Source: Dolomedes plantarius
Lineage: Eukaryota > Arthropoda > Arachnida > Araneae > Dolomedidae
Direction: 5' to 3'
Assembly (NCBI GenBank): GCA_907164885.2
Contig: OU015493.1
Location: forward strand, 57,486,302-57,550,301
DNA: 64,000 nucleotides
Positions 25,608 to 55,846 of the stretch are shown one piece after another. Below the pieces are notes generated by a model that made no database searches, was not told the origin of the DNA, and saw only the letters and a program-made list of their open reading frames with translations. How positions within the stretch are numbered: the stretch's first letter is position 1; each line of letters opens with the position of its first letter. Made by a program: the position numbers and the translations under genes.

Positions 25608-27020
25608 CACTCATGGACAAAAAAATTAGCGCACCAAGAAATAATTGCGGGATCGTAACGAAACTTGCAATGAAGGTACATGTCGGGAAGATATGCAAAC
25701 GATTAGAAATGCAGCGTGATTGCGCATTACGTACAGCCGGTAGAAGGCGTTGAACATCGTACTCTGTGGAGTATAAAACAGGTAACCAAAGCTTGTTTGA
25801 GTGTGCTGAATCATTTACAAAGGAAGAGCCGAGATAGACATGCCATTACGCCGTGTTCGAAGACAACATAAGCAGTTGTCGCAGTTTGAGAGGGGGAGAA
25901 TCGTAGGGATGATGGAAGCTGGGTGGTCAGCTAGGCGAGTAGCTCGTCAATTAGGCCGCTCTGATTGTGTTGTGAGGAGGTGTTGGGACCAGTGGGCCCG
26001 AGAGATGTCATGTACACGAAGACCAGGCTCAGGACGCCCTCGACAGAATAGTCGTCGAGAAGACCGCCACATCGTAAGAAATGCACGCGTACAGCCAACT
26101 GCTTCATCGGCCGCCATCAAGGCACAGGTAGCACCTTCACTAGGAGCCTCTGTGTCTTCTCGAACCATACGAAGGCGCCTGGCTAAAGGAAAGTTGGTAT
26201 CGCGGCGCCCATTACGTGTGCTGCCCTTGACGCCCACACATCGACGCCTCCGTTTGGAGTTTTGCCGCGCACGAGGAAACTGGACTGCAGCGGAATGGAA
26301 CCAGGTCGTCTTTAGCGACGAATCCAGATTCAATCTCGGCAGTGATGACAATCGTGTGCGTGTGTGGAGAGCCCGTGGTGAACGCTTCAATCCTGCCTTT
26401 GCTGTACAGCGACACATCGCTCACACAGCTGGTGTGATGGTATGGGGTGCCATTGCCGACAATGCACGGTCGCCCCTAGTATTGTTCCGTGGCACCATGA
26501 CAGCCCAGCGGTATGTTCATGAAATCCTGCAACCACATGTGTTGCCACTCATGCAACGGCTCCCAGGAGCCATTTTTCAACAAGACAATGCTCGGCCTCA
26601 GACGGCAACGGTGTCACAAGACTGTCTCCGCACTGTTACTACCCTTCCTTGGCCTGCCCGATCCCCAGATTTGTCTCCAATCGAGCATATCTGGGATCAT
26701 TTGGGACGACGAGTTGGGCATCCCACGAGTTTGAACGAACTAGAGGCAAGGTTACAGCAAATATGGAACGAAATGTCTCAAGACATCATACAGAACTTGT
26801 ATGACTCAATGCCCGATCGTATCGCATGGTGCATTCGCGCTAGAGGGGGTCCAACGGAGTATTAACTCCTCCGTTCTTTTGCCTTTTTCTCTGAAATAAA
26901 TTATCCTTTTTCTTTGATTTTCTTATCATTTACTTATATCAAAGTAGTCATTATGTATGTATAATTTCGTTTCATTTTGACGACTCCTTCTTAGTGCGCT
27001 AATTTTTTTGTCCATGAGTG
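25608..27020 (+). mobile_element. Complete Tc1-family transposon
   Basis: Perfect 27-bp inverted repeats begin cactcatggacaaaaaaatt at 25608 and end at 27020; after one mismatch the match continues for five more bases. TA lies on both sides (25606-25607, 27021-27022). The 1,413-bp element contains one uninterrupted transposase frame. The coding part is visibly GC-richer than the flanking DNA. Identical ends and an open frame indicate a recent insertion into the tip of dispersed repeat unit 1. Confidence 0.95.
25840..26865 (+). CDS. Tc1-family transposase, intact
   Basis: 341 residues, the usual length for Tc1 transposases, which cut and reinsert the element at TA sites in the nucleus. An N-terminal paired-like helix-turn-helix region (about residues 12-60, RVARQLGRSDCVVRRCW) is followed by a GRPR-type basic motif (RPGSGRPRQ) and a second winged-helix region. 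The DDE domain has D in VVFSDESRF, D in IFQQDNARP and E in SPDLSPIEHIW. I count 32 residues between the second and third, fewer than the 34 of classic Tc1. The usual His in the DNxPxHT motif is Gln here (NARPQTA), which could affect activity. ATG at 25840 gives the expected N-terminus. Flanking 27-bp ends are intact. It closely resembles what I recall of orb-weaver spider Tc1 copies. Confidence 0.93.
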   Translation: MPLRRVRRQHKQLSQFERGRIVGMMEAGWSARRVARQLGRSDCVVRRCWDQWAREMSCTRRPGSGRPRQNSRREDRHIVRNARVQPTASSAAIKAQVAPSLGASVSSRTIRRRLAKGKLVSRRPLRVLPLTPTHRRLRLEFCRARGNWTAAEWNQVVFSDESRFNLGSDDNRVRVWRARGERFNPAFAVQRHIAHTAGVMVWGAIADNARSPLVLFRGTMTAQRYVHEILQPHVLPLMQRLPGAIFQQDNARPQTATVSQDCLRTVTTLPWPARSPDLSPIEHIWDHLGRRVGHPTSLNELEARLQQIWNEMSQDIIQNLYDSMPDRIAWCIRARGGPTEY

Positions 27021-29535: not shown

Positions 29536-29610
29536 ATTAAGTAAAGTTTTCTTACCTAACTTTTAATGAACTAGAAATTTAAGTGAAGTTTAAATATTGC
29601 TCGGGACACA
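29536..29610 (+). repeat. Remnant of BEL 5' LTR
   Basis: The block ttacctaacttttaatgaac through ctcgggacaca matches the end of the 3' LTR (36376-36446) with few differences. Nothing corresponding to the first 300 bp of the LTR is present upstream, so the 5' LTR was truncated before or during joining to repeat unit 3. Confidence 0.75.
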
Positions 29611-29618
29611 ATATTTAA

Positions 29619-29645
29619 TGGCATCCCTGCCGGGATTCGAGTTGT
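29619..29645 (+). other. Candidate primer-binding site of the BEL element
   Basis: A stretch beginning tggcatccctgccgggattc lies eight bases after the LTR end. TGG start and a segment complementary to a tRNA T-arm (gattcgag) fit a tRNA primer site. The tRNA cannot be named by eye. Confidence 0.5.
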
Positions 29646-29646
29646 T

Positions 29647-31049
29647 TTGAAATTGTTAATAATAGAATTGTTATTAGAATTACTATTTAAGAATTATGGA
29701 TCATTTTTAAAAAAGTTGAGAACACCTATTCGATGTGCATTTACACGCATAGCTACTGTACTTGAGAACAATTTAAACGCCGAAGATAAAAATATTGATG
29801 AAATTGAAATTTTATATGCTCAGTTAGAGGGAAAATGGAACGATCTTAGTTTTAAAGAAAACGAAATTCAAGATCTTATTTTGAAAGAGGAAAATTGTTC
29901 TCAGGAAATGTTTGATAAAGAATATGAAGGTTTTAGTATGTACGAAGAAAAATTTGTTAGGTTAAGAACAGAGGTTCAAAAAGCTTTGAAGAATGTTAAA
30001 ATGTGTGTATAAGTGACTTTCAACTAATTGAAAATCCTATGAAACGGAAGTTTAAACTTCCAAAAATAGCATTTAAATTAACCGGAGAGGAAATTAAAGA
30101 ATGGTTGCCATTTTGGGCACAATTTGAAAAAATACATAACGATGAAGAAATTGCCAACGAAGACAAATATTAATATTTATTACAGGCCACGCTGAAAGGC
30201 TCAAGAGCGCGCGAAATTGTTGAATCTTATCCCGCAACGGGTGATAGTTATGAAAATGTTATTGATTGTTTAAAAGCCCATTTGGGCGGAAGGATATGCT
30301 AATAGAAGTATATATTAGAGAAGTTCTTTCGCTAATGATGAACAACGTGATGCGGAAAGGTACTAAAACACCTCCATTTAAATTGCACGATAAGATTGAA
30401 ACATACTTGAGATCGTTGAATATGTTGGGTGATTCTAGCGAAAACTATTCTTCAATTTTGTACCCATTAATTGAATCTTTCCTGGCTGTCGACATATTAA
30501 GAATTTAAGGAAGAAACTTAAATTCGGTATCCTTGACATCTAATTCGAAAGAAGAAAATGTTAATGAATTAGATACTCTGGTGAAATTTTTACTTCACGA
30601 AATCGAAAGTGATGTAAAAGATTGGCGCGCAGCGGATTTAACCTTGAATCCGAAAGCGTAAACAAACGAATTTCGACCGCGTCAGCTAAGAGGAAACGAA
30701 TTTTGCCGACAGCTGCAGAATTGTTTAACTCTTCGGAAACGAAAAGAGAAGCCTGCGTGCTTAGTAATCGAGTTGGGCATTCGAGCAATTTTCGTAGATA
30801 TGCTGATAATTTTTCTTATGAAGAGAAAATACAAATATTAATGAAAAATAATGCATGTTTTAGGTGCCTTGCAAAAAACCACGTTTCTCGATTATGTAAA
30901 GCGAAAGTTCCACCCGGAGAGTTCTGTGGTGGTAAATCTCATTTTAAAGTTATGTGTACCAGAAAATTCAGTCAGGAATACTCGAGCAAACCGCAACGTG
31001 TTGAAAGAGTAGAAACTGAAAATAGGAAGGACTCAGCTCTGTCCAATAA
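29647..31049 (+). pseudogene. BEL gag polyprotein remnant
   Basis: The Gag protein would package element RNA into particles. The N-terminal part is a charged helical region (EIEILYAQLEGKWNDL). The central region in a shifted frame shows IKEWLPFWAQFEKIH and LKGSRAREIVESYP, hallmark motifs of arthropod BEL gags. Near the end are zinc-knuckle-like motifs, CFRCLAKNHVSRLCK and CGGKSHFKVMC, for RNA binding. Frameshifts near 30012 and 30260 and stops near 30174 and 30508 separate the pieces. A Harbinger-like MITE lies immediately after the last codons. Confidence 0.85.
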
Positions 31050-31238
31050 GGGCCTGTTCACATAGGAGTCCGTTGCGTTGCGTTAAGGAAAAGATGACGT
31101 TGAGACGAAAATAAACCAATCATACGCCTCCAAACAATTAGCAATGAAATTTTTAACGCCTATGATTGGTTTATTTTCGTCTCAACGTCATCTTTCCCTT
31201 AACGCTACGCAGCGGACTCCTATGTGAACAGGCCCTAA
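31047..31238. mobile_element. Harbinger-like foldback MITE, copy 1
   Basis: The 186-bp element (31050-31235) is almost a complete palindrome: arms of about 80 bp begin gggcctgttcacataggagt and the right arm is its inverse. A 3-bp target duplication TAA flanks it (31047-31049, 31236-31238). GGCCTGTT tips with a TWA duplication are characteristic of PIF/Harbinger. It interrupts the BEL coding region. A related, more diverged copy is at 60632-60769. Confidence 0.85.
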
Positions 31239-31832
31239 AACATATACGCGTAAAGTTCTTTTGCAAACATTTATTGTTCGTTTGAGGGGTGAGAATAGAA
31301 CGAAATACATAAGAGTGTTAATTGATTCTGGCAGTAGTAAATCCTACTTATCAAATTTCACTATATCGGAAACGGGATATAAATGCATTGCTGAAGAAAA
31401 TTTGACTCATAGTTCATTCGGCGGCTTAGAAACTACAGAAACACACCAGAGATATTTGATTCGTCTAAGTGACTTTTCAGATACAGATGTAATTTTGAGG
31501 TGTTAAACCAAGAAAAAAATATGTTCCAAAATTCCAAAAATACCACGGGGGAAATTTAACAGTGAAGTTAAGAAGCAAAAATATTTTCTGTCTGACTTGA
31601 ATGATGAGGTGACTTGAAGGATTTGTTATACCAGTTTTCTCCTAGAGAGATTCATGGGCTGATTGGGGCAGATGTTGTAGGTAAATTGTATACTGGGAAC
31701 ATAAAACAGTTGCAATCTGGCCTAGTTTTTATGGAAACGCGCCTGCGATGGACAATGATGGGTAAAACAAATACAGACGAATCTTCAGACAGCACGAATA
31801 GTGTTATGTCGCTACATGTAAACGATGCATAG
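31239..31832 (+). pseudogene. BEL aspartic protease region remnant
   Basis: After the MITE the frame resumes with a retroviral-type aspartic protease: VLIDSGSSKSYLS carries the D-S-G active-site triad (about 31318). A stop at 31504 and a shift lead to a second segment with IHGLIGADVVGKLY, the conserved motif downstream of protease in BEL polyproteins. The segment ends at a single in-frame stop (31830-31832) beyond which the same frame continues into the reverse transcriptase region. The protease would cut the polyprotein inside particles. Confidence 0.75.
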
Positions 31833-33150
31833 ATTTCAGATCTATGGCGGCTTGACACACTTGGAAGTTTAGATCCTGGAGACAAGGGAAATCAACAAGA
31901 TCTGGAGATGGCAGCCGAAGAACATTTTAACAGAAGGGGGAAAGTTGATGATGATGGAAGATACGTTGTAAGTCTCCCGTGGATACAAGGCCATCCTCCT
32001 TTACCCACTTGCAGAAATGTTGCAGAACGAAGGCTGAAGATCTGTGCCGATTCATTGAAGAGTAGTGGAAACTTAGAAGCATACGAAGAAGTGTTAAGAG
32101 AGTGGCTTCAAGAGGAAGTCATTGAAGAAGTCAAGAACTCCTGTACCGATGAAAGTGAACATTACTTGCCTCACCGGGCCGTAGTTAAAGAAAATTCCAC
32201 TACAAGAGTGCGACCCGTCTTCGAAGGATCAGCAAGATAAAAGAATTCTCCCTCTGGTTTATATATATAAACGATTGTTTGGAAAAGGGACCAAATACTG
32301 TCGAGCTCATTCCAGCCATCATGAATAGATTTAGATTGAAGAAATTGGCGTTGTTGCCGACATTCGCAGAGCATTCCTGCAGATTGGACTGAGTGCAGTT
32401 GATAAACCTTATCCGAAATTCTTATGGTGGGAGGAAGGTGATCCGGCCAAGCCTAAAATTTTCCAGCATCGGCGAGTTGTTTTTGGGCTTTCTTGCTTTC
32501 CTTATTTATTGGGAGCAACCATTCGATTTCATTTGCAGAATGTTCCTCAAAATTTTGAAAAAACTGCAGCCCAGTTGTTAGAATCATTTTACGTGGATAA
32601 CTATGTGACTATTGTGGATGACCCCGAAGAGCTTGATAAATTTATCGAGGAATCTAGAACAGTTCTTAGCACTACCAAATTTGAGCTTAGAGGTTGGGAG
32701 CACAGTAATAAAGACTTTGATGATCTTTTGTCAGGAAACGAAAAGAGTATTCCTGTTCTGGGACTTAAATGGAATTTAAAAAAGGATTCTTTGACGGTAG
32801 TTTTACGAGATTATGCTGAAGACGATACACCCGTGACAAAAAGAAAAATTCTGTCAGCTGTGCATAATATTTTTGACCCCCTAGGTTTCACTTGCTCTAT
32901 TACGTTGGGGCCAAAGATACTCCTATAAGAGTGCTGGAAATTGAAAGTGTCGTGGGATGCGGAACTTCCCACCTCCATTGTCAAAAAATTTGAAAGTTGG
33001 AGAACAGATATATCTAAATTGAAAGAAGTAGAAATTCCGCGATGTCTTATACCCGTTTCTGAAGTACCGAGAAGTTTAACGTTGAATGTGTTTCGCGATA
33101 CAAGCAAAGTAGCATATGCTACTTGCATTTTTTTTGAGAAGCGAGACTGA
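31833..33150 (+). pseudogene. BEL reverse transcriptase remnant
   Basis: DLWRLDTLGSLDP, the linker motif of BEL pol proteins, opens the region. It is followed by YLPHRAVVKENS and VRPVFEGSAR, the start of the polymerase fingers. After a stop at 32238 the palm domain continues in shifted frames: ADIRRAFLQIGL holds the first catalytic Asp, FGLSCFPYLLGAT follows, and FYVDNYVT is the catalytic box, with Asn in place of the second Asp of YVDD. I recall YVDN in other BEL copies, so this need not be a mutation. Downstream are FELRGWEHS and a thumb-like segment. Several shifts inactivate it. Confidence 0.85.
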
Positions 33151-33774
33151 AAATTCAACGACCTGTCAACTTGTTCAGGCAAGATGCAGAGTTGCTCCAA
33201 TGAAGTCTCTATCCATTCCAAGATTGGAACTCCTTGCCTGCAGTATCGGCGCTAGATTAGATACTGCACACAGAGTGTCACTACACAGAGTGTGAGTAAT
33301 GATCTAAAGTTGGAGAATGTATCGAAAATTTTCTGGTCTGATTCGGCAAATGCTTTGTATTGGATCAAAGGAACTGAAAATTGGACTCCCTTTGTTTATA
33401 ACAGAGTGCATGAAATTCGTTCCCTAACCAACCCTGAAGATTGGCATCACGTGCCAGGACATTTGAATGCCGCAGATCTTCCATCTCGTGGATTTAGTGT
33501 TGAATCTTTGGCTCAGACGAGATGGTGGGAGGATGTGGACTGGTTAGCAAGACCACCGGAGGAATGGCCGAAATCAATCGCAGTCCCTGATTTCGCTGTA
33601 ATCAATTCGGAAAAAGGAAAACTGTCATTAGCGCAGCTAATCATGCAGAAGCATCTGGGGGAAAACATAACAGATTCTCCTCGTACGATAAGCTTCTTAG
33701 AGTTACTGCATGGATGTATCGATTTTTCACAAATTGTAAAGTTGAAAAGTGTAACCGAATTACTGGCGCCTTAA
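33151..33774 (+). pseudogene. BEL RNase H / connection remnant
   Basis: SIPRLELLACSIGARLD in a shifted frame, then FWSDSANALYWIK with a catalytic Asp, then DWHHVPGHLNAADLPSRG match the RNase H domain of BEL elements, which removes RNA from RNA-DNA hybrids. WWEDVDWLARPPEEWP is the usual linker to integrase. A stop at 33772 and an intervening short out-of-frame stretch precede the integrase. Confidence 0.8.
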
Positions 33775-33894
33775 CACTCGAAGAGATAAATAAAGCAGAA
33801 GTCAGTGCTTAAAATTGTACAGAGCGAATCATTTTCAGGAACGGATGATAAACACTTAAAAGCGCTTTAGTGTTATGTAGATTCAAACGGAATT

Positions 33895-34306
33895 TTGAAA
33901 GTAAAGACCCGAATCTTAATGAGAAAAGATACAGAAAATTTCAGATATCCGACAATATTGCCTTCGCGTCATCCAGTTGCAGAAAAAATTATTCGGACCA
34001 GACATACTAAATTAAACCACGCTGGTGTTCAAATTCTGGTGAGTAACTTAAGAGAAGATTTTTGGATTCTTAAATATCGGAAAACCGTAAGAAATGTAAC
34101 TAGAACATGTGTACGATGTAAACGATTTAAATCATTCCCTAAACCGACAATCGAGGCACCCTTCCCAGAAGATCGCGTAAAGGAAGCTGCGGTGTTCGAA
34201 GTCGTCGGAATAGATTATGCTGGCCCATTAATTCTAAGAAAGGGTCAGAAAGCCTGGATAGTCATTTACACATGTGCTGTTTTCAGAGCTATTCCTTTAG
34301 AAGTAG
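33895..34306 (+). pseudogene. BEL integrase, N-terminal part
   Basis: A zinc-binding region is visible: HTKLNHAGVQ supplies the two His and TCVRCKRFK the two Cys of an HHCC finger. It is followed by the start of the catalytic core, VVGIDYAGPL, with the first Asp of the DDE triad. The frame is cut after RAIPLEVV by the 825-bp LTR-like insertion. The target duplication AGTAG marks the break and the remainder resumes at 35132. Confidence 0.85.
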
Positions 34307-35136
34307 TGTAGGCAATAAAATTACCTTAAAAAAATGGATGCATGCATGGGTTGGAACAAGCAAGGAAGACAAAGCATTGGCCTTAAACATACATTTATTT
34401 GATAACGCACAAATTTCAATTAAATTCTAATAGCTACTAGTACAATAATCTCTTTCATATTAACATTTTTACATATGAGAACTCAGAAGCAGAGGTAAAC
34501 TATATTGTCAAAGATGATTTTTAGAGTCTATGGGGAGGCACTTACTACAGCTGAAGGATGCAGCGATGATGGTGGCATCGACGACCGGGACCCAGAATCA
34601 TGTCATGTATAGGAACATCTTAGCGGGTTACTGGCACTTCTCCTAGAATATGAGGCAGACGAGACTCTCTATCATCTAAATTCTCAGGCAAAAAATAGTC
34701 TGAGATCGATCTGGACCTCCTCTCCTATTCCTTTCGTCTTTGGAGGGGCTGTTGTCCGTTTACAGGGGGGGCCATTCTGGCCCGCCATTTTCATTGGACA
34801 GTGGGCTGTTTTTCTTTCTGTAGTTCCTGCCCCAATTGGTTCCTTATTAAACAGCCTCTGTCCATAGTCTACGAAGTACCTCCCCACCATAATTTTATTT
34901 TGCAAAACAACTTTGACCCTTATCATCTGAAGTTTTTACTGTGGGCCATAAAATAACGACCATCCATCTTGTAATATTTAGACTTTAGATCGCTATCACT
35001 GGCCACACCGACAGCTATTCTTCTATTATCTCCTTGTTTACAAGCCTCTATTTACCCCTGCCTCTGCAGCCTTTATAATAGATTCGTTATTGGCCACACA
35101 CCGTGGGGAATTATACCATTCCACTTCTACAAGTAG
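34302..35136. mobile_element. Solo LTR-like insertion in the BEL integrase
   Basis: The 825-bp element (34307-35131) starts tgtaggcaataaaattacc and ends ttctaca. An exact 5-bp duplication AGTAG flanks it (34302-34306, 35132-35136). TG...CA tips, a 5-bp duplication and no internal coding region are what a solo LTR leaves. It aligns with the shorter copy at 21639-22083 at both ends; about 380 bp in the middle (34543-34922) are unique to this copy. No related internal region occurs in the window, so the parent element is unknown. Confidence 0.7.
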
Positions 35137-36003
35137 CAACTGCCTTAACGACGGACAATTTTTTACAAACATTTCGGAGATTTATTGCCCGAAGAGGTAG
35201 ACCAGCTATTGTCTATTGTGATAATGGAACTAATTTTACAGGTGCAGATTATTTGTTGAAACGAATCAACTGGAATATTATTTCCCAGTACAGTACAAGC
35301 CAAAAAATTGACTGGAAGTTCATACCTCCATCTGCTTCATGGTGGGGTGGATGGTAGGATCGTCTTGTTGGCATGATGAAAGGAACGTTTTAGGGCGGTC
35401 GTCCCTGAATTTAGAAGAAATGACAACCATCTTCTGTGACACCGAGAACATTATAAACAGTCGTCCAATAACTTATGATGACGTGAATGATCTCACCCCT
35501 CTCACACCTTCCACGTTTTTACAGGAACTCAAAGAATCTCGAACTCCTGATTTAGACAATTTAAATTCATGTCTCTCAATAAAAGACTCACTTATAGACA
35601 AAGAATTAGAGAAGATCTACGTAAAAGATTCCGAATAGAATATTTAGGAGATTTGAGACAATCATCTAAGAATGCTAAAAATAACAAACGAATCCAAATC
35701 GGAGATGAAGTTTTAGTTTCTAGCGACAACACCAAGAGATTAGATTGGCCTATGGACAGAGTTGCAGAAGTGTATCCTTCAAGAGGTGGTTATATCCGGC
35801 TTGTAAAAGTTAAAATGAATAATGGCGAGTTTCTTCGTCCTGTGCCTCGACTGATACCATTAGAAGTTACTGAAGAAGGTGTGCAACCCGACCTCGCCCC
35901 GGTCACTGACTCGTTTCCTGCAGATCGGACAATTGACAATGGGACTAATCAAGGTGATGTAGACTGTTCACCACCCGATCACGGACTTAGACGATCCCGA
36001 TAG
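35132..36003 (+). pseudogene. BEL integrase, C-terminal part and terminal domain
   Basis: The catalytic core resumes with LTTDNFLQTFRRFIARRGRP and YCDNGTNFTGA, holding the second Asp. At WWGGW a TGG-to-TAG type stop occurs, and the next residue, where the catalytic Glu is expected before RLVGMM, is Asp. Further shifts follow. The last segment (35569-36003) encodes IGDEVLVSSDN, DWPMDRVAEVYPSRGGYIR and RPVPRLIPLE, the BEL-type C-terminal domain. The stop is at 36001. The element is doubly dead as an integrase. Confidence 0.85.
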
Positions 36004-43666: not shown

Positions 43667-43671
43667 TTGGC

Positions 43672-44177
43672 TGTCAGACTCTCGTCTCCCATTCCTAAGT
43701 GGAATTGATGAACGTGAGTAATAGCGTCTTCAATGAACTCAAAAGAAACGCAAACAGGTGTTAAACGATATACACCTTTGGAGAAGTGCGACAATAGTTG
43801 AAAAATCCATGAACGGCGCGCTATGGATTGTCGGCACCTTGGAAAAGTCGGCAGGAAAGAAAATTCGTCATGGATGGTTCGAGAAGGCGCTGAAAAGAAT
43901 GGATAAATAGAGGCGCGAGTAACGAAGGAGGAGGAATAGATTCGGACTGTTGAATGGTCAACACGCTTACGGGAGACGGGGAGCTCGTGGGACTTTGAAA
44001 TAATGAGCCCAGCTCTCACGAGTATTTTTAACGTTCGTCGGAACGAAACTTTGTAAATAACGTATTTAACCAAGATTTTAATATGTTAATAAACCTCATG
44101 AACTAAGAGTTGACTCTACAATTATAATTCCTTCTACATGACAATGATTTGTCGGATCACGACGATAAAGGTTAACA
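43672..44177 (+). repeat. 5' LTR of the gag-only element
   Basis: Starts tgtcagactctcgtctccc and ends aaaggttaaca. A possible polyadenylation signal aataaa occurs within ttaataaacctcatg near 44089. Four substitutions separate it from the 3' LTR, three of them in the first 300 bp. Confidence 0.92.
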
Positions 44178-44178
44178 T

Positions 44179-44196
44179 TGGCGTAGTCGAATTAAA
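44179..44196 (+). other. Primer-binding site of the gag-only element
   Basis: tggcgtagtcgaattaaa starts two bases after the LTR end. TGGCGnAGTCGA-type sites are used by Gypsy elements of the 17.6/297 kind, which supports a Ty3/Gypsy ancestry; that link is from recall. Confidence 0.65.
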
Positions 44197-44498
44197 GAAC
44201 GTGGGAGGACCCCAGCGATACGGAAGGTATCAGGAAAAGATGATCTAGAGTACGAGAGTGGTGATAGATCTTCAAGGAGACGCAGTTTCAAGAGAAGTTG
44301 GATTCCGAACGAGTCTACTGGGCACGACTTCAGCGACAGATATTTACTCGGCAACTGGTCAAGAAAAAGGAGAAATTCAAGGTCGGAGTAAAGTGTGCAT
44401 CAACGACGTGGTTATATACTGAACTCTCTTGAACTGTGATCAAAGTGCGGCAGCGGAGAAAGATTAGAGTGACAGTTTTTCATCGAGGTGAAAAAGGG

Positions 44499-44504
44499 GT
44501 AAGT
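44499..44504 (+). promoter_or_regulatory. Possible splice donor in the element leader
   Basis: ggggtaagtg in the untranslated leader is a near-ideal 5' splice site. It may allow a spliced leader form of the element RNA, but no acceptor is obvious before the gag start. Confidence 0.25.
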
Positions 44505-44882
44505 GATTCTATCTTTTCTCCCTGTGTATGAGATAGCGGTAGTAATTAGTTGAAGGAATCTAATTATTTTTGATAAATTTTGAAGTGTTGATTCATGTGT
44601 ATAATGATGGAAGTAATTTGTTGAGTTATTGAATTTTGGTAAATGGAATAATAATTTAAAAGTGAAAAAGTGTTATTTTGTATAACGGGAAATGTGTACA
44701 AGTGTTCGTACTAGTTATTAGTGGAAGTGGTTTATAATTGTAGTAGTTAAATGCTCTTAGAATTATCATAATTGTGGAAGTAAATAGTTCAAGATAAGTA
44801 TAGTTGGTTAAATTTTGTTATAGTTGTAAAAGTGAATTTGTACTTGTTTGCTGCATTTGTGATTAAGTGGTATAAGCTAAAA

Positions 44883-46364
44883 ATGGCATTCATAGGGAAG
44901 GGGCGGAAAGCCGATTTAATTTTGTTAGCTACAGAGTTAACAGGGATTTATCCGTCTTCGGAGAACAGGACATATACTGATCTTAAGGAAATGATATTAG
45001 GAAGTGAGAAATATGAGGAAGAGTCCGCTAAGGAACGGTTATTTGCCATAATTAATGAGAGATTAGAACGAGAGCAAAGAGAAATAGCAAAACAGGAGAT
45101 GATGTTAAAATTGAAAGAATTGGAAGTTGAAGAATTGAGGATGAGGGCAGCTAAAAGACTTTCAAGTTTAAGGGTCAGAGAAAGTATTGGAATGGTTAAT
45201 AATAATTTCGAAGGAGTTTTGAAAGAGGAAAAAAGGGTTATTCTTGAACCACTAGTTAACACAGATAAGGTATTTGGCAAAATTGAGCAGAAAAAGGAGG
45301 ATAAAAGATGTTTTGTCTGTAATAGTAAAGACCATTTGAAATATAAGTGCCCCAGAAGAGTTCAAAATCTCAGAAATAGAGGGGATCAGAGGGGAGATAA
45401 ATTTGAGATGGAATTTAACAGAGGCGAAATTATTCAACCTGAGAATAAAATTGAAACCAAACAGGAAAGAGAAGTGAGGGATGTAATTACTCAGGGAAAG
45501 GAGGTCCTTGAAGGGGTAGCATGTTCCCAAAGGCATTTGAGTAACAGTATAGATCAGATATTAGATGAGGAGTTGATTATTCCTCCTAATATGTTCGAAA
45601 TTGTAAGGGATACAGAGGAGGAGATGGCTAGTCCCCCGAATAGATTTGAAAGCGCAAGAGACACAGGTGAGGAGATGAACTATAAGGGAGGAGGTAGTGA
45701 ATTATGTCCTAATGAGAATTTAGATGAGACAGAGGAGGAGATGATTATTCCCCTTTATATGTTTGAAATGGGAAGTCAGACGAAGGATGAGGAGATGTAC
45801 TATGAGGGAGGAGGTAATGAATTAAGTCCCAATGAGAATTTAGATGAGGTGCGAGAAATTGATAAAATTTTGGATGGGGAATTAAGTCTCAATGAGAATT
45901 TAGATGAGGTGCGAGAAATTGATAAAATTTTGGATGGGGAATTAAGTCTCAATGAGAATTTAGATGAGATGCGAGAAATTGATAAAATTTTGGATAGGGA
46001 ATTAAGTCTCAATGAGAAATTGGATGAGGTGCGAGAAATGGGATTTTCAACGGAAAACAAGAGGAAAGATCAAATTGATATGTTAAGGAATAAAGGGTTA
46101 GAGGAAACTAATAATGAGAATGGAAATAATCAAAGGGAAACACGAAACGAAGAATTAAGTGCTCAGGGAAGCCCCAGCGATACGGGTAGGAAACAGACGC
46201 AAAGTATGGGAGGAAAGACTTCCGCAGAAAAGGGTGATTTTGTACCGACACTAGATCACAAATTCACAAATTCAAAATTGAACAACAATCATTCAATTCA
46301 GTCAATGAGAGATAGTGAAATAATAAAGCCAAAAACCCGTTCGTATTTATTTAGGGTCCCGTAA
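44883..46364 (+). CDS. Gag-like protein of the non-autonomous LTR element
   Basis: 493 residues from the ATG at 44883 (aaaaATGGC context); an in-frame ATG 51 bp upstream exists but follows a hydrophobic stretch less typical of gag. Residues 1-50 (KADLILLATELTGIYP) resemble the short SAP-like N-terminus of arthropod Gypsy gags. 50-100 are a highly charged probable coiled coil. A single CCHC zinc knuckle CFVCNSKDHLKYKC is at 143-156. The capsid domain expected between coil and knuckle is missing: only about 40 residues separate them. The C-terminal half is acidic and repetitive, with 20-residue repeats (LDEVREIDKILDGELSLNEN) near 315-388. It probably binds element RNA and co-assembles with a helper Gag. 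Intact frame in a young element argues for selection or recency. Confidence 0.8.
   Translation: MAFIGKGRKADLILLATELTGIYPSSENRTYTDLKEMILGSEKYEEESAKERLFAIINERLEREQREIAKQEMMLKLKELEVEELRMRAAKRLSSLRVRESIGMVNNNFEGVLKEEKRVILEPLVNTDKVFGKIEQKKEDKRCFVCNSKDHLKYKCPRRVQNLRNRGDQRGDKFEMEFNRGEIIQPENKIETKQEREVRDVITQGKEVLEGVACSQRHLSNSIDQILDEELIIPPNMFEIVRDTEEEMASPPNRFESARDTGEEMNYKGGGSELCPNENLDETEEEMIIPLYMFEMGSQTKDEEMYYEGGGNELSPNENLDEVREIDKILDGELSLNENLDEVREIDKILDGELSLNENLDEMREIDKILDRELSLNEKLDEVREMGFSTENKRKDQIDMLRNKGLEETNNENGNNQRETRNEELSAQGSPSDTGRKQTQSMGGKTSAEKGDFVPTLDHKFTNSKLNNNHSIQSMRDSEIIKPKTRSYLFRVP
45828..46046 (+). repeat. 60-bp in-frame tandem repeat in the gag-like gene
   Basis: Almost four units of exactly 60 bp, each with ttagatgaggtgcgagaaat and aaaattttggat, encode the 20-residue acidic repeat. 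Units differ by one to a few bases, indicating recent expansion. A longer, more diverged repeat (GGG-S/N-EL-C/S-PNENLDE) lies just upstream. Confidence 0.95.
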
Positions 46365-47130
46365 AAATCACAGAGAGAATCACAAATTTAAGTAATTCCC
46401 AAAGAATTCCGGTAAACTCATGTAATTGTGTATTTTATAAATGTTCTCAAATTGATTTAAGTTGCTCTCGAAGAATTCATTGAAAATTTAATTAAATGTG
46501 TATTTTGGTAATTGCATTGATAACTAATGTTGAATCCTAAGAAAAACGGATTAAATTTTTAAATATAATGGTATGATGAATTTTAAGTGTATGATATTTA
46601 TTTTTTGTTGTTGTTTGTTGTATGAACACTTGGTTTATATTTTTTTTTAAGTGAAGAACTAAATTAATGTTAAGTATTCCCTAGAGATTTGGGGAAGTTT
46701 CATTAAAATATGTAAGTTTAACTGGTTAAGATTAAGCCAGGAAATTCCTAAAGAGTTTGAAAAAAAAAAGGAATCAAAAGTGTAATTAACTTAGAAATTC
46801 TTGCTTTAAAGATAAGTGATTGGTAGGCAAATAATTTGTTAGTGTTTAGGTTAAAGTAAAGAAATGAGCAAGAATTATAATATTAATTTTGTGTCAAGGC
46901 TAAGTGTGAAAAGTAATTTTTGTTACCTGTAAATGTTGTGGCTATCTCATATGCAGATGAAAACATGGAATCATTTACTTGTAAAAATGTGTTATTATTG
47001 TAGCTACAAAGCGTCCCCGTCACAAGTTAAAAAGCGCAGTTATTACTCCATGTGTGTGCCTCGTTATCATCTAATCAACAGGGACTGTTGTTCAAACGTG
47101 AAAACGTCTCAAAGGACTTTTTTCACTTCT
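46365..47130 (+). other. 3' untranslated interior of the gag-only element
   Basis: AT-rich, no frame with any pol motif in either strand. This is where protease, reverse transcriptase and integrase would lie in an autonomous relative. Confidence 0.6.
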
Positions 47131-47143
47131 AAAGGAAGGGGCG
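47131..47143 (+). other. Polypurine tract of the gag-only element
   Basis: aaaggaaggggcg lies just upstream of the 3' LTR (which starts at 47146), in the position that primes plus-strand DNA synthesis. Confidence 0.75.
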
Positions 47144-47145
47144 TA

Positions 47146-47651
47146 TGTCAGACTCTCGTCTCCCATTCCTAAGTGGAATTGATGAACGTGAGTAATAGCG
47201 TCTTCAATGAACTCAAAAGAAACGCAAACAGGTGTTAAACGATATACACCTTTGGAGAAGTGCGACAATAGTTGAAAAATCCATTAACGGTGCGCTATGG
47301 ATTGTCGGCACCTTGGAAAAGTCGGCAGGAAAGAAAATTCGTCATGGATGGTTCGAGAAGGCGCTGAAAAGAATGGATAAATAGAGGCGCGAGTAACGAA
47401 GGAGGAGGAATAGATTCGGACTGTTGAAGGGTCAACACGCTTACGGGAGACGGGGAGCTCGTGGGACTTTGAAATAATGAGCCCAGCTCTCACGAGTATT
47501 TTTAACGTTCGTCGGAACGAAACTTTGTAAATAACGTATTTAACCAAGATTTTAATATGTTAATAAACCTCATGAACTAAGAGTTGACTCTACAATTATA
47601 ATTCCTTCTACATGACAATGATTTGTCGGATCACGACTATAAAGGTTAACA
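47146..47651 (+). repeat. 3' LTR of the gag-only element
   Basis: 506 bp, co-linear with the 5' LTR without gaps. The four differences are single-base changes at positions corresponding to ccatTaacgg, cggTgcgc, gaaGggtc and gacTataa in this copy. Confidence 0.92.
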
Positions 47652-47833
47652 TTGGCTCTTAAACATGCAAGCGACTCCAGATATAACAACACCCAAATTA
47701 TTTCTCTTTGGTGCCCATGTCATCCTCCAGACAATTTTCGACAACTGTTATAGCCCTAAGAATTTTTAAGCAATGAAAATACTCAAAGTAATTTTGTATA
47801 CACGGTACTCAAACTTTCAATTTATTCCTAAAT

Positions 47834-52347: not shown

Positions 52348-53620
52348 AAATTTTTCTTTGTTGACCTAAGTAGGAATTGACTTTAAAAAATTTTTTTTTA
52401 TATATTACTTGTTTATTATTATCATCTACTAAACTTTTTAGTGTTCAGGAAGATAACTTTTAAAATCATTCCTTATTTAAAAACTAAACTTATGCCAAGC
52501 TGTATTCTGAAGCCCAAGAGTTCATACGATTGCCATGGCAACGTAAATGAAAGGAGATACTTGCTTTATAAAACAGGTAGTTCAGGAATTCCAAGCTTAA
52601 AATAATTATCAAAATGATGCGGTTTCTAAAATCGTGAATGTACTGAAAAGAAATTGCAGCTTTCTTTGCAGATTTTTTTTTTCGACGGAAGCTGTATAGT
52701 CATCCTAAAGTTTATTTTATTATGCTTCCTTTTTTCTATATTTTCTTTTCTTTGCGATAATTTCTAACCAGATTTCAGTTTTCAAAAATAAGTTGGAAGA
52801 TTTCAATTTTAAAAGGTGAAATCAGGAATATTTTCAAACCAAGTGAGTATACTTGGCGGTTTACTTGATGATATCAGTCAGTATACTTGATTAAGCCAAC
52901 GCAGTTTGTTCCTGCAACTTCCTGGTCCAATGAGAAGAGCATTAAAATTGTTCCAAAATGTATCAGCTTCGGTTATATTGAGCTGGACATGTAATAAGAA
53001 TATATATTTATTGGAAAAGCTGGGGGGAGGGTTCTTTTGAGGTATAAGTATTTCTATTCCTTCTGAAAATTGTTCGGCATTAAGAATTTTCGGTTGTGAT
53101 ATATTAAAGTCGCTCACATCTTTTCTTCACGACCTTTCTGTTTGAAAAGAAAAGCAAAGAAGTTCTAACTTACAGCAGTTTTTCCTTAGACAAACTTTTC
53201 TTTCCTGTTATTGGACCATATAAACCGCTGATGGACCATACCATAGACAATAAAGGAACTTTCTGGGAAGTCTCTTTTAGAGTCAAGATATCAAAAGAAG
53301 ATTGTGATTGCATCATAGTTATATTAAATAACTGTGTCATTTATAGACTAAAAGGTAATAGACTAAAATGTAAACCTCTCTTTCAATCATGATAGGCATC
53401 CCTTCATATTTTTTTCTAATTAGGAAAAAGTGTCTCTGATAAGAAATTCTATTCTTCATTTTAAAATAATGCATATTACACTAAATATCATATACTCTCG
53501 TATAGAAGGATGACCATAATACTTCAAAAATATTAACCTACGAATGTTGTGAAAAATACGCTGTTCCCCAATTCAACACATCGTTAACATACTATTAATA
53601 TCGATAAAATTACTTTGCAG
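52348..53620. other. Probable intron, part 2
   Basis: AT-rich. It ends with ttactttgcag at 53610-53620, a plausible splice acceptor for the large exon. No internal exon recognised. Confidence 0.35.
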
Positions 53621-55846
53621 GTAATGAATGAAAGAATGGAAAACAATACGACCCCCAATCATTTTACGGCGAAAGACATTTACGGAAAACATTTCAATGA
53701 ATTAGATTACGGACAAAATCTTTCCGGAAATGATTGCGAACAGAGTTACTACAGATCACCTTTCGTAGCAGACAGAGAATTTTGCAGATCTTATGCTAAT
53801 CATGACGAAAAATGCTACTTTGGAATGTCAGGAGATAGAACTCTCTCTAAAAGTCAAGAAAATAGGTCGGTGTTTTCAAGTAGCAACGCGAGAAATCAGT
53901 TTTCAAACAAATGGACAAGCGGTAGTTCCCGGAATGATTGGTACCTCAAAAGCTGCAGTGTGCAAGAGAAGCTTTCTTCCAAAGATGCTTGTGTGCAAGT
54001 TTCCATCGGAGATCTACAAAGTTACAAAAAAATGAACCATATCAATCTATATGAATTCCAAACCGACCTCAGAAATTTTGAAGAAACAGAAGAAGTAATA
54101 CATGGAACATGCAAGTATTGCAGGAAACCTCTTAGTGCTTCCGATTTTGAGTGCGAATCTGCCTCCATGAGCCACACGTTGCAGCCAACTGATGATTACA
54201 GACATCAATTCAGACATGAAAAATCGATTCCAAAATACACTAACACATGCTGTCACCACTTTCCAGAATACCGATATGAGGTATCGTATCGTGATGCCCG
54301 TAACGTAAACGAATGTTTCTCAGATTCTCATCCTAACGAAATGCAGCCGGCTCATTTCTATCCCGGATGCTATTGTTCCTTTGCCCCGTGCAATGCTGCG
54401 TATTTCAACGAGACATATTCAAATGTTTGTTCGAGAGAAATAGTGGGTAACTCGCATCCTTTTCAGTGTAGCTTAAGACCTTATGATGGAGAGGAATTTC
54501 CAGATAACAGATGTTTCCTTCCACATAGCAGCAAAGCAATCCTTTATTATAATTTCCAATGTTCATGTGATAGAACTCCAGAGGGCAGAGATGACAGGCA
54601 CAATCTCGAACCTATCTACGAATTTCAGCGTATTCCAAAGTCCTCCATGCCATCGCCAAATCGAAACAAAAATATTCATAAAATAAGCAATGCGAAATAC
54701 TATGTGGAGTACTCAGAAATATCGGATTTTCACACTCCCCGAGAGAACAACACATGTAAGTATGCATATTGCAACAAAATAACACATAATAGACAAACCT
54801 CCTCTGATTTCAACTTTGACTTTCATCAAGCTGAATGTCGGAAGTCGAACTCAGATGAAAGCGTCACACAATCCAGATATGATAAAGAAACCAACAGTGA
54901 CATGGCAAACAATATGTATTTGTTGTATTTTTCTAAAGCTACTCACAGGCAAGAGCAAAAAGAGGAAAAGTCTAACGACAAGCAGTTCAAAACACCTTCT
55001 GTAATTCGAAATCTCAGTCCTGACACAAAAATTGGAAACACAGAAAAGGATATTGCTTTCTCATCAGACACAGTCACGTCAAAATTGAAAAGGCCTGTGG
55101 TAGAAATTCTGACAAGCCCTGGAGATGGAAGGTCAGGTGCAAGAAAACAAAACTTGCCACCCACATTTCAAAGTGATTTTGAAGGTCAACTGGAGGAAGT
55201 TATGAAAGATATCCATCAAGAGGAACTATCAAAAAAAAGAACGACTTCACAACTTCAGGATGTTGTCGATAGCAACAGGCATAGAAAATCCCCTGGGACA
55301 AGTTTCCGTAGTAACGAATCCAAGGCCACAGAAGGTTTGGCGCATGCCCCTATAATTTTAGAATGTGTCACACCAAGTATGCCTTCTAGGGATCAAACTG
55401 CAACAGCAAACCTCGATGACGATGGACAGATTACTGTTAGAAAAGACACTAAATATGACAAGCCAAAACAAATTCCAAGTAATTTGGCTTCAAGAAACTC
55501 AGAAAGCTCACCGGTTTCCTCCGGTTTATCACAAACTCTATATTTACAAAATCAACCTCCCACTTTCTCAAGAATCCAGCAAGACAAATCAAATGTATCA
55601 GGCTCTTGTCTATCTGAGCCGAAGAGTAATAGGAATGTTAATACTGCAGAGTTAAATGAATCCAATCTTCAGGGGAAAACTGTTAAAAATAGAAGCATCG
55701 CATCGGTACAGCGCGCCACCAACAGCAAGGTTCAGCGACGCTTCAGAAACCCAGAAGTAATGGATGACATTTATAGCTATGCAGACAACGTGCTGCAAGA
55801 AATGAAAAGGGTTCTGATAGAGAAAGGCAAGTGGAACGGGAAATAA
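53621..55846 (+). CDS. Large 3' terminal exon of an unrecognised host gene
   Basis: 741 codons are open from the acceptor ttactttgcag to TAA; an ATG two codons before the acceptor would give 743 residues if unspliced. The N-terminal 400 residues are rich in Cys, His, Tyr and Asn, with CKYCRKP near residue 166 and many isolated Cys, suggesting metal binding or disulfides without a named fold. Residues 400-700 are polar, Ser/Lys/Asn-rich and probably disordered. A short helical C-terminus (MDDIYSYADNVLQEMKRVLI) looks structured and may be a conserved interaction motif. Three AATAAA signals follow within 135 bp. The sequence is not repetitive, not transposon-like and less AT-rich than its flanks, so a real gene is likely. 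I do not recognise the family. Confidence 0.7.
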   Translation, partial: VMNERMENNTTPNHFTAKDIYGKHFNELDYGQNLSGNDCEQSYYRSPFVADREFCRSYANHDEKCYFGMSGDRTLSKSQENRSVFSSSNARNQFSNKWTSGSSRNDWYLKSCSVQEKLSSKDACVQVSIGDLQSYKKMNHINLYEFQTDLRNFEETEEVIHGTCKYCRKPLSASDFECESASMSHTLQPTDDYRHQFRHEKSIPKYTNTCCHHFPEYRYEVSYRDARNVNECFSDSHPNEMQPAHFYPGCYCSFAPCNAAYFNETYSNVCSREIVGNSHPFQCSLRPYDGEEFPDNRCFLPHSSKAILYYNFQCSCDRTPEGRDDRHNLEPIYEFQRIPKSSMPSPNRNKNIHKISNAKYYVEYSEISDFHTPRENNTCKYAYCNKITHNRQTSSDFNFDFHQAECRKSNSDESVTQSRYDKETNSDMANNMYLLYFSKATHRQEQKEEKSNDKQFKTPSVIRNLSPDTKIGNTEKDIAFSSDTVTSKLKRPVVEILTSPGDGRSGARKQNLPPTFQSDFEGQLEEVMKDIHQEELSKKRTTSQLQDVVDSNRHRKSPGTSFRSNESKATEGLAHAPIILECVTPSMPSRDQTATANLDDDGQITVRKDTKYDKPKQIPSNLASRNSESSPVSSGLSQTLYLQNQPPTFSRIQQDKSNVSGSCLSEPKSNRNVNTAELNESNLQGKTVKNRSIASVQRATNSKVQRRFRNPEVMDDIYSYADNVLQEMKRVLIEKGKWNGK

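Follow-up and report, generated by a model that had tools for sequence, protein, structure and literature searches.

How does a long terminal repeat (LTR) retrotransposon that encodes no pol, and no protein other than a capsid-less Gag, come to move? The question is raised by an element of 3,980 bp at positions 43,672–47,651 of a 64,000-nucleotide stretch of the genome of the spider Dolomedes plantarius (contig OU015493.1, positions 57,486,302–57,550,301; hereafter the window), which a first-pass annotation had described as a young gag-only element that hijacks a helper. Our analysis indicates that it very probably belongs to a non-autonomous Gypsy-type (Ty3/Metaviridae) family moved by the Gag-Pol of a relative, with its own Gag acting, less surely, as a packaging adaptor.

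Results

The 2,968-bp interior holds a single long open reading frame (ORF; 44,883–46,364, forward strand, as are all features of the element) of 493 codons plus stop. Its longest stop-to-stop frame spans 526 codons, whereas 300 Markov-shuffled interiors reached no more than 187. Residues 1–62 (44,883–45,068) match a Gypsy Gag N-terminal profile built from 64 Araneus sequences (E 2.2e-12, 43 bits), and the proteins nearest to this Gag type, among the best 120 of 179, belong to Araneus ventricosus or Trichonephila clavipes save for one nameless record. The N-terminus had initially been called SAP-like, a label that we could not confirm: no SAP domain was found in Pfam at E ≤ 10, in a search where HMMER filters drop most weak matches, and the region is a Gypsy Gag domain known in spiders. 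An AlphaFold2 model (17 sequences; mean predicted local distance difference test score, pLDDT, of 58) predicts helices at residues 9–22 and 25–40 and one long helix at 46–135 (45,018–45,287), confident from about 51 to 120 with a mean pLDDT of at least 90 in every ten-residue block from 61 to 120. The length of this coil differs between copies of the family. One CCHC zinc knuckle (residues 143–156; 45,309–45,350) follows, and then an acidic tail (residues 177–493; 45,411–46,361) with 75 D+E against 39 K+R and in-frame tandem repeats at 45,612–46,039, which comprise a 117/120-bp pair (45,612–45,848) and 60-bp units (45,819–46,039). The single 493-residue ORF with coiled coil (the long AlphaFold2 helix), one knuckle and acidic repeat tail is as first annotated. 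No homologue of the tail stands among the protein-search matches listed, and neither a protein search by region 1–215 nor scans of viral contigs gave a match.

A hidden capsid fold had been named as the finding that would overturn the first-pass annotation, and the sequence and model indicate that the capsid is absent, not hidden. Hardly any confident structure is predicted past the long helix, and no capsid bundle. A capsid profile built from 49 Araneus sequences was run with filters off against the six-frame translation of the window (1592 pieces) and matched nothing in the ORF at E ≤ 10. The best chance match elsewhere in the window reached 9.4 bits, while positive controls reached up to 121 bits in held-out proteins (three from Trichonephila, one nameless). 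In the same genome, three capsid-bearing Gags scored 156–183 bits with the capsid profile and 33–45 bits with the N-terminal profile. Between coil and knuckle there is no room for a capsid domain; it is the profile and this missing room that carry the conclusion, and fold searches alone would not decide. The relative P0006 (AlphaFold2, mean pLDDT 57.5) is predicted to start similarly and then to form a set of helices at 148–319, whose best structural matches are the capsids or capsid-like domains of RSV, PEG10, Arc, Copia, MLV and PNMA2. Profiles for the protease and the integrase C-terminus gave no match in the element. Reverse transcriptase (RT) and RNase H (RH) were judged by open frames: no long frame is left on either strand of the 3′ region (46,365–47,145). 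The claim that the element has no pol and no room for a capsid is borne out by these profiles and by the interior with its one long ORF, and a Gag lacking its capsid domain together with an interior lacking pol sets it apart from autonomous Gypsy/Ty3 elements. As far as its sequence tells, the 493-codon protein belongs to a kind of Gypsy Gag that occurs in spiders but has no capsid of its own.

The cis features are those of a Gypsy/Ty3-type LTR retrotransposon, namely TG..CA LTRs, a short target-site duplication (TSD), a primer-binding site (PBS) and a polypurine tract (PPT). The two 506-bp LTRs (TGTCAG...TTAACA; 43,672–44,177 and 47,146–47,651) have four mismatches and are flanked by an exact 5-bp TSD, TTGGC (43,667–43,671 and 47,652–47,656), in agreement with the young insertion first described. 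Directly 3′ of the 5′ LTR lies the PBS TTGGCGTAGTCG (44,178–44,189), which we take to be a tRNA-Ser primer site; the leader runs from 44,178 to 44,882, and the PPT AAAGGAAGGGGCGTA (47,131–47,145) adjoins the 3′ LTR. Since the PBS opens with the same five bases as the TSD (44,178–44,182), the window copy alone cannot separate a TSD from a 511-bp LTR. Sibling copies decide the matter, as their LTRs run TGTCAG...TTAACA and their 5-bp TSDs vary from copy to copy. They settle that the TSD was rightly called; the annotated span of 43,667–47,656 includes it, and the element proper is shorter by both duplications.

The genome (2.78 Gb, 390 contigs) contains 260 exact copies of a 37-mer across LTR end, PBS and leader, 289 sites with the exact PPT/LTR-start pattern and 251 exact copies of a gag-start 30-mer, so that the family counts some 250 copies. 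Searches with the LTR (40 of 1934 first-look places scored, 29 of the 40 sitting 3.4–3.65 kb from another) and with the protein (87 of 5217 scored) had been proposed as checks at the outset; the complete counts are those of the exact patterns. In a survey for two-ended copies on contigs C1–C4 (C4 to 94.9 Mb), which required a PPT site within 15 kb of the PBS, 62 of 80 PBS sites had such a partner and 18 had none; 58 of the 62 interiors measure 2820–3163 bp, and the remaining four are longer (4847, 5901, 6083 and 8876 bp). Exact outer TSDs flank 12 of the 14 loci fetched as LTR pairs (that of L010 is off by one base and L015 has an odd duplication) and all four solo LTRs, and the LTRs are identical within L009, L020 and L022. 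A further 30 loci, window copy included, were chosen by best Gag match, and the sample therefore leans to young copies; three are cut by the fetched stretch, and the 27 complete pairs include 23 with exact TSDs and 11 whose LTRs show no base difference (two of the 11 with a one-base gap). With its many copies and young insertions, the family is recently active.

The likely helper came to light among the long-interior copies. All four lack the gag-only start 30-mer at the expected place, and each holds a capsid match; in one copy the match is incomplete and contains a stop, and in another it lies 4.1 kb from the PBS. One frame of a 601-base piece from one long copy (L064) has no stop along its whole length and codes for a capsid (P0110, E 6e-18; capsid profile 31.8 bits; a SCAN match under the Pfam cut-off), and a second piece (L065) contains the Gag start, 399 nt upstream in the same frame. 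In this one copy the N-terminus of the helper Gag is 53.5% identical to that of the window Gag over 114 amino acids (E 1e-30), and the corresponding DNA is 71.6% identical over 338 nt. A search of the genome with the helper capsid returned 24 full-length matches of at least 93%, 22 of them without a stop within the match, and the longest open frame around a match counts 1,499 codons. A survey from PBS to gag on C1–C4 (C4 to 172.5 Mb) covered 92 PBS sites. The gag-only start follows 69 of them and the capsid of the likely helper 6; no site has both, and 17 have neither. The capsid-bearing relative is the rarer of the two. In some copies, this capsid-bearing relative has the same LTR end, PBS, leader start, PPT and LTR start as the gag-only family, which makes it the likely helper by sequence. 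The contrast between matching ends and Gag N-termini that share little more than half of their residues suggests that the split is old and that selection or recombination has kept the ends similar. A search with P0066 gave no match in the known helper copies among the matches listed.

The ORF is intact from start to end in 10 of the 14 LTR-sampled loci. Across 34 ORFs picked as intact, lengths range from 468 to 539 amino acids and change by whole codons, and the mean ratio of nonsynonymous to synonymous change (pN/pS) is 0.64, or 0.50 without the repeats. It is lowest in the N-terminus (0.24), followed by residues 166–230 (0.32), the coil (0.42), the C-terminus (0.66), the linker (0.77), the repeats (0.85) and the nucleocapsid (NC; 1.23, on few changes). 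Read in the two wrong frames, the same non-repeat columns give 1.69 and 1.04, and the N-terminus 4.09 and 0.80. A star-like neutral simulation yields 0.75 ± 0.13 with a minimum of 0.53 among 100 runs, against the 0.50 observed. Within the 117/120-bp repeat pair, pN is 0.180 and pS 0.175. As the 34 copies are related and were chosen intact, we limit the claim to a modest constraint on the ORF, strongest in the N-terminus; selection among gag copies had been put forward for comparison by the first-pass annotation.

Several other candidates were considered and set aside. Four loci with frames of 1,502–1,514 codons (L059–L062) were examined as helpers, but no matching LTR end or PBS was present in the fetched pieces; their families carry the same Gag type and may be extra helpers. 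Sites where TTAACATTGGCGTAGTCG is followed by a non-A base (31 in all) were likewise considered, and the one that was read (L063) proved to be an LTR variant, not a helper. At positions 1–100 of L063, an LTR end is followed by 20 nt and then by a second LTR end. The 20-nt stretch is presumably a longer copy of the tRNA-Ser 3′ end, L063 is probably a primer read-through variant, and the other TTAACATTGGCGTAGTCG-non-A sites may be alike. A supposed remnant of the post-capsid linker in both Gags (LVNTDK / LVRTDK) has a score that 551 of 1000 shuffles reached.

We draw no support from an apparent capsid-less lineage in Araneus, which we read as gene-model introns. Among 120 listed proteins, 30 show the N-terminus but no match to the capsid probe, some being only short fragments, and many of these join ..GAE (or similar) to ..DDWSK/DEWSK or ..DQIKRK. 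On a tree of 33 proteins, which leaves out four unlabelled ones (three with the second junction, ..DQIKRK), the capsid-less label changes 8 times compared with 8.1 in shuffles, and a single clade is rejected. Gene models of Araneus ventricosus skip the Gag capsid at the same junctions (P0074, P0077, P0101, P0108 and others). These skips are probably annotation introns, although some may be real splicing.

A number of further observations concern the family's structure. The LTRs of L029–L058 measure 506–555 bp, with the middle of U3 replaced (about LTR positions 112 to 233) and the same kind of interior, and the length variants would represent LTR subfamilies with one Gag in common. Runs of copies in the same orientation, at steps of about 3.5–3.7 kb (one of 5.8 kb), form tandem arrays at G000:C4:112236566-112253212, C4:216522938-216530383, C2:21074453-21085001, C1:160595586-160612685 and L013, where neighbouring copies have an LTR in common. 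The leader falls into two parts, the first (44,178–44,498) with 45% GC and the second (44,499–44,882) with 27% GC and 5% C. This second, C-poor and T-rich part begins with GTAAGT and contains seven of the eight upstream ATGs. GTAAGT occurs in 21 of 21 leaders, window copy included, and lies 383–385 nt upstream of the gag ATG in 20 of them, and the part 5′ of it differs in length among the 21. The second part could possibly be a leader intron.

Elsewhere in the window, a Tc1-type transposase frame of 350 codons without a stop lies at 25,813–26,862 (PF01498, PF13358), and open frames at 29,587–36,003, some with matches to RT, Pao peptidase and the integrase zinc-binding domain, make up a decayed BEL/Pao element. 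A 751-codon open frame at 53,591–55,843 has no Pfam match at E ≤ 0.01.

Discussion

A mechanism is proposed in which transcription would start from the LTR, the 493-codon ORF would be translated, and the element RNA would be packaged into particles of the capsid-bearing relative, whose Pol would then carry out tRNA-primed reverse transcription followed by integration. Most speculatively, the element's Gag might join the helper Gag through the common N-terminal domain and the coiled coil, and its CCHC knuckle might bring in the element's own RNA. Of the hijacked helper first suggested, the capsid-bearing relative with the same ends is found in the genome; trans-mobilisation by it, and thus the dependence itself, we infer. 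As the Gags are about half identical and the ends identical in the copies found, such a partnership would be of long standing, with its two sides evolving in step. The loss of the capsid may even have been adaptive, yielding a dedicated adaptor Gag which claims helper particles for its own RNA and spares the cost of building a shell, which we consider quite possible if somewhat short of an even chance.

Several points weigh against this reading. The helper's pol is deduced from the lengths of open frames and interiors, and exact end patterns served to find the long copies, which partly builds in the identity of their ends. Of the 15 capsid matches entered for C1–C4, a number from which certain distant, duplicate or partial rows are omitted, only 6 lie within 5 kb of an exact PBS site, and neither gag follows 17 of the 92 PBS sites. 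Purifying selection on the ORF is modest (0.77 in the linker, 0.85 in the repeats and, on few changes, 1.23 in the NC). Other Gypsy families of the genome could also serve as additional helpers.

Among the alternatives, it is practically dismissed that the window copy is a private deletion of an autonomous element while most copies carry a full gag-pol, because hundreds of sites have the same ends or gag start and 58 of the 62 two-ended copies are gag-only in size; nothing in the data speaks for it. The ORF could instead be a passenger that decays slowly while the cis ends alone move the element, as in terminal-repeat retrotransposons in miniature (TRIM) or large retrotransposon derivatives (LARD). 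The repeats do evolve almost freely, as both their pN/pS and the near-equal pN and pS of the 117/120-bp pair indicate, and four of the 14 LTR-sampled loci have no intact ORF. Yet the non-repeat pN/pS lies below all 100 neutral simulations and both wrong frames and falls lowest in the N-terminus, and the intact frames, though selected as such, change length by whole codons; we consider a passenger unlikely.

Slightly less likely again is a role for the capsid-less Gag in interference or regulation, in which it would co-assemble with the helper Gag and limit or bias the helper. The parts likely to contact the helper Gag are kept and the shell-forming part is gone, which would suit such a role, but an element that blocks its helper would block its own movement too. 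In yeast, p22 of Ty1 limits Ty1. Drt2 also does so, the title of its PDB entry being ‘Drt2, an Endogenised Ty1 Gag CA-CTD Restriction Factor’. Restrictors of this type are pieces of capsid, and a capsid-less Gag is the reverse. It is improbable, finally, that the element forms a capsid-free particle of its own, a ribonucleoprotein built from coiled coil, zinc knuckle and acidic tail that recruits the helper's Pol. The coil is predicted to be long, and confidently so, and HeT-A of Drosophila, which has no pol, likely uses the RT of another element (PMC5537684). The LTR end, PBS and PPT held in common with a capsid-bearing element nevertheless point to the helper's particle. We know of no Ty3-type element that bypasses capsid assembly, which also counts against a particle of its own.

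We thus favour mobilisation by the relative's Gag-Pol. Gag-only LTR elements pose the question of what a parasite's Gag does. This family has lost the part that forms the shell and keeps the remainder in frame in many copies, a natural experiment that separates assembly by Gag from its choice of RNA. With a likely helper of matching ends also present in the genome, helper–parasite coevolution is open to direct testing. Among open PMC papers, surveyed by titles and the starts of abstracts, we found no gag-only LTR element of a spider or other arthropod and no capsid-less Gag of this kind.

Comparison with known systems

The systems compared are drawn from PMC8704663, PMC12477816, PMC5537684 and PMC3532108. 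HeT-A of Drosophila is likewise an arthropod Gag-only element and, according to PMC5537684, likely borrows the RT of TART or TAHRE; it is a telomeric non-LTR element of other chemistry, forming telomeric arrays, whereas the spider element has LTRs and dispersed TSDs. PbTRIM of the ant Pogonomyrmex barbatus is a non-autonomous arthropod LTR element with young copies (PMC3532108), but it is a TRIM, that is a miniature, non-coding element, with 4-bp TSDs, while the spider element has 4 kb, a 5-bp TSD and a conserved protein. Copia families of the brown alga Ectocarpus have a single gag-like ORF, the capsid status of which the excerpt does not state.

Closest in the protein are the Gypsy elements of Araneus and Trichonephila and the relatives in the same genome, which have the same Gag N-terminal domain, coil and CCHC knuckle; their Gags also contain a capsid and, where the model extends, an aspartic protease, both of which are missing from the window element. 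Closest in plan are the plant Terminal-Repeat Retrotransposons with GAG (TR-GAG), which have two LTRs, one Gag ORF and no pol (PMC8704663), as does the spider element. The same paper reports that an Arabidopsis member transposes and that its subfamily has a potentially autonomous relative. The candidate spider counterpart of that relative has matching ends and bears a capsid, and its pol is suggested by length. The Arabidopsis TR-GAG is a Copia element of a plant, and its Gag is full-length; the spider element belongs to an arthropod, has lost the capsid and carries an acidic repeat tail. As it has the TR-GAG plan but not the capsid of a full-length Gag, we class it among gag-only elements as a variant lacking the capsid rather than as an ordinary TR-GAG member.

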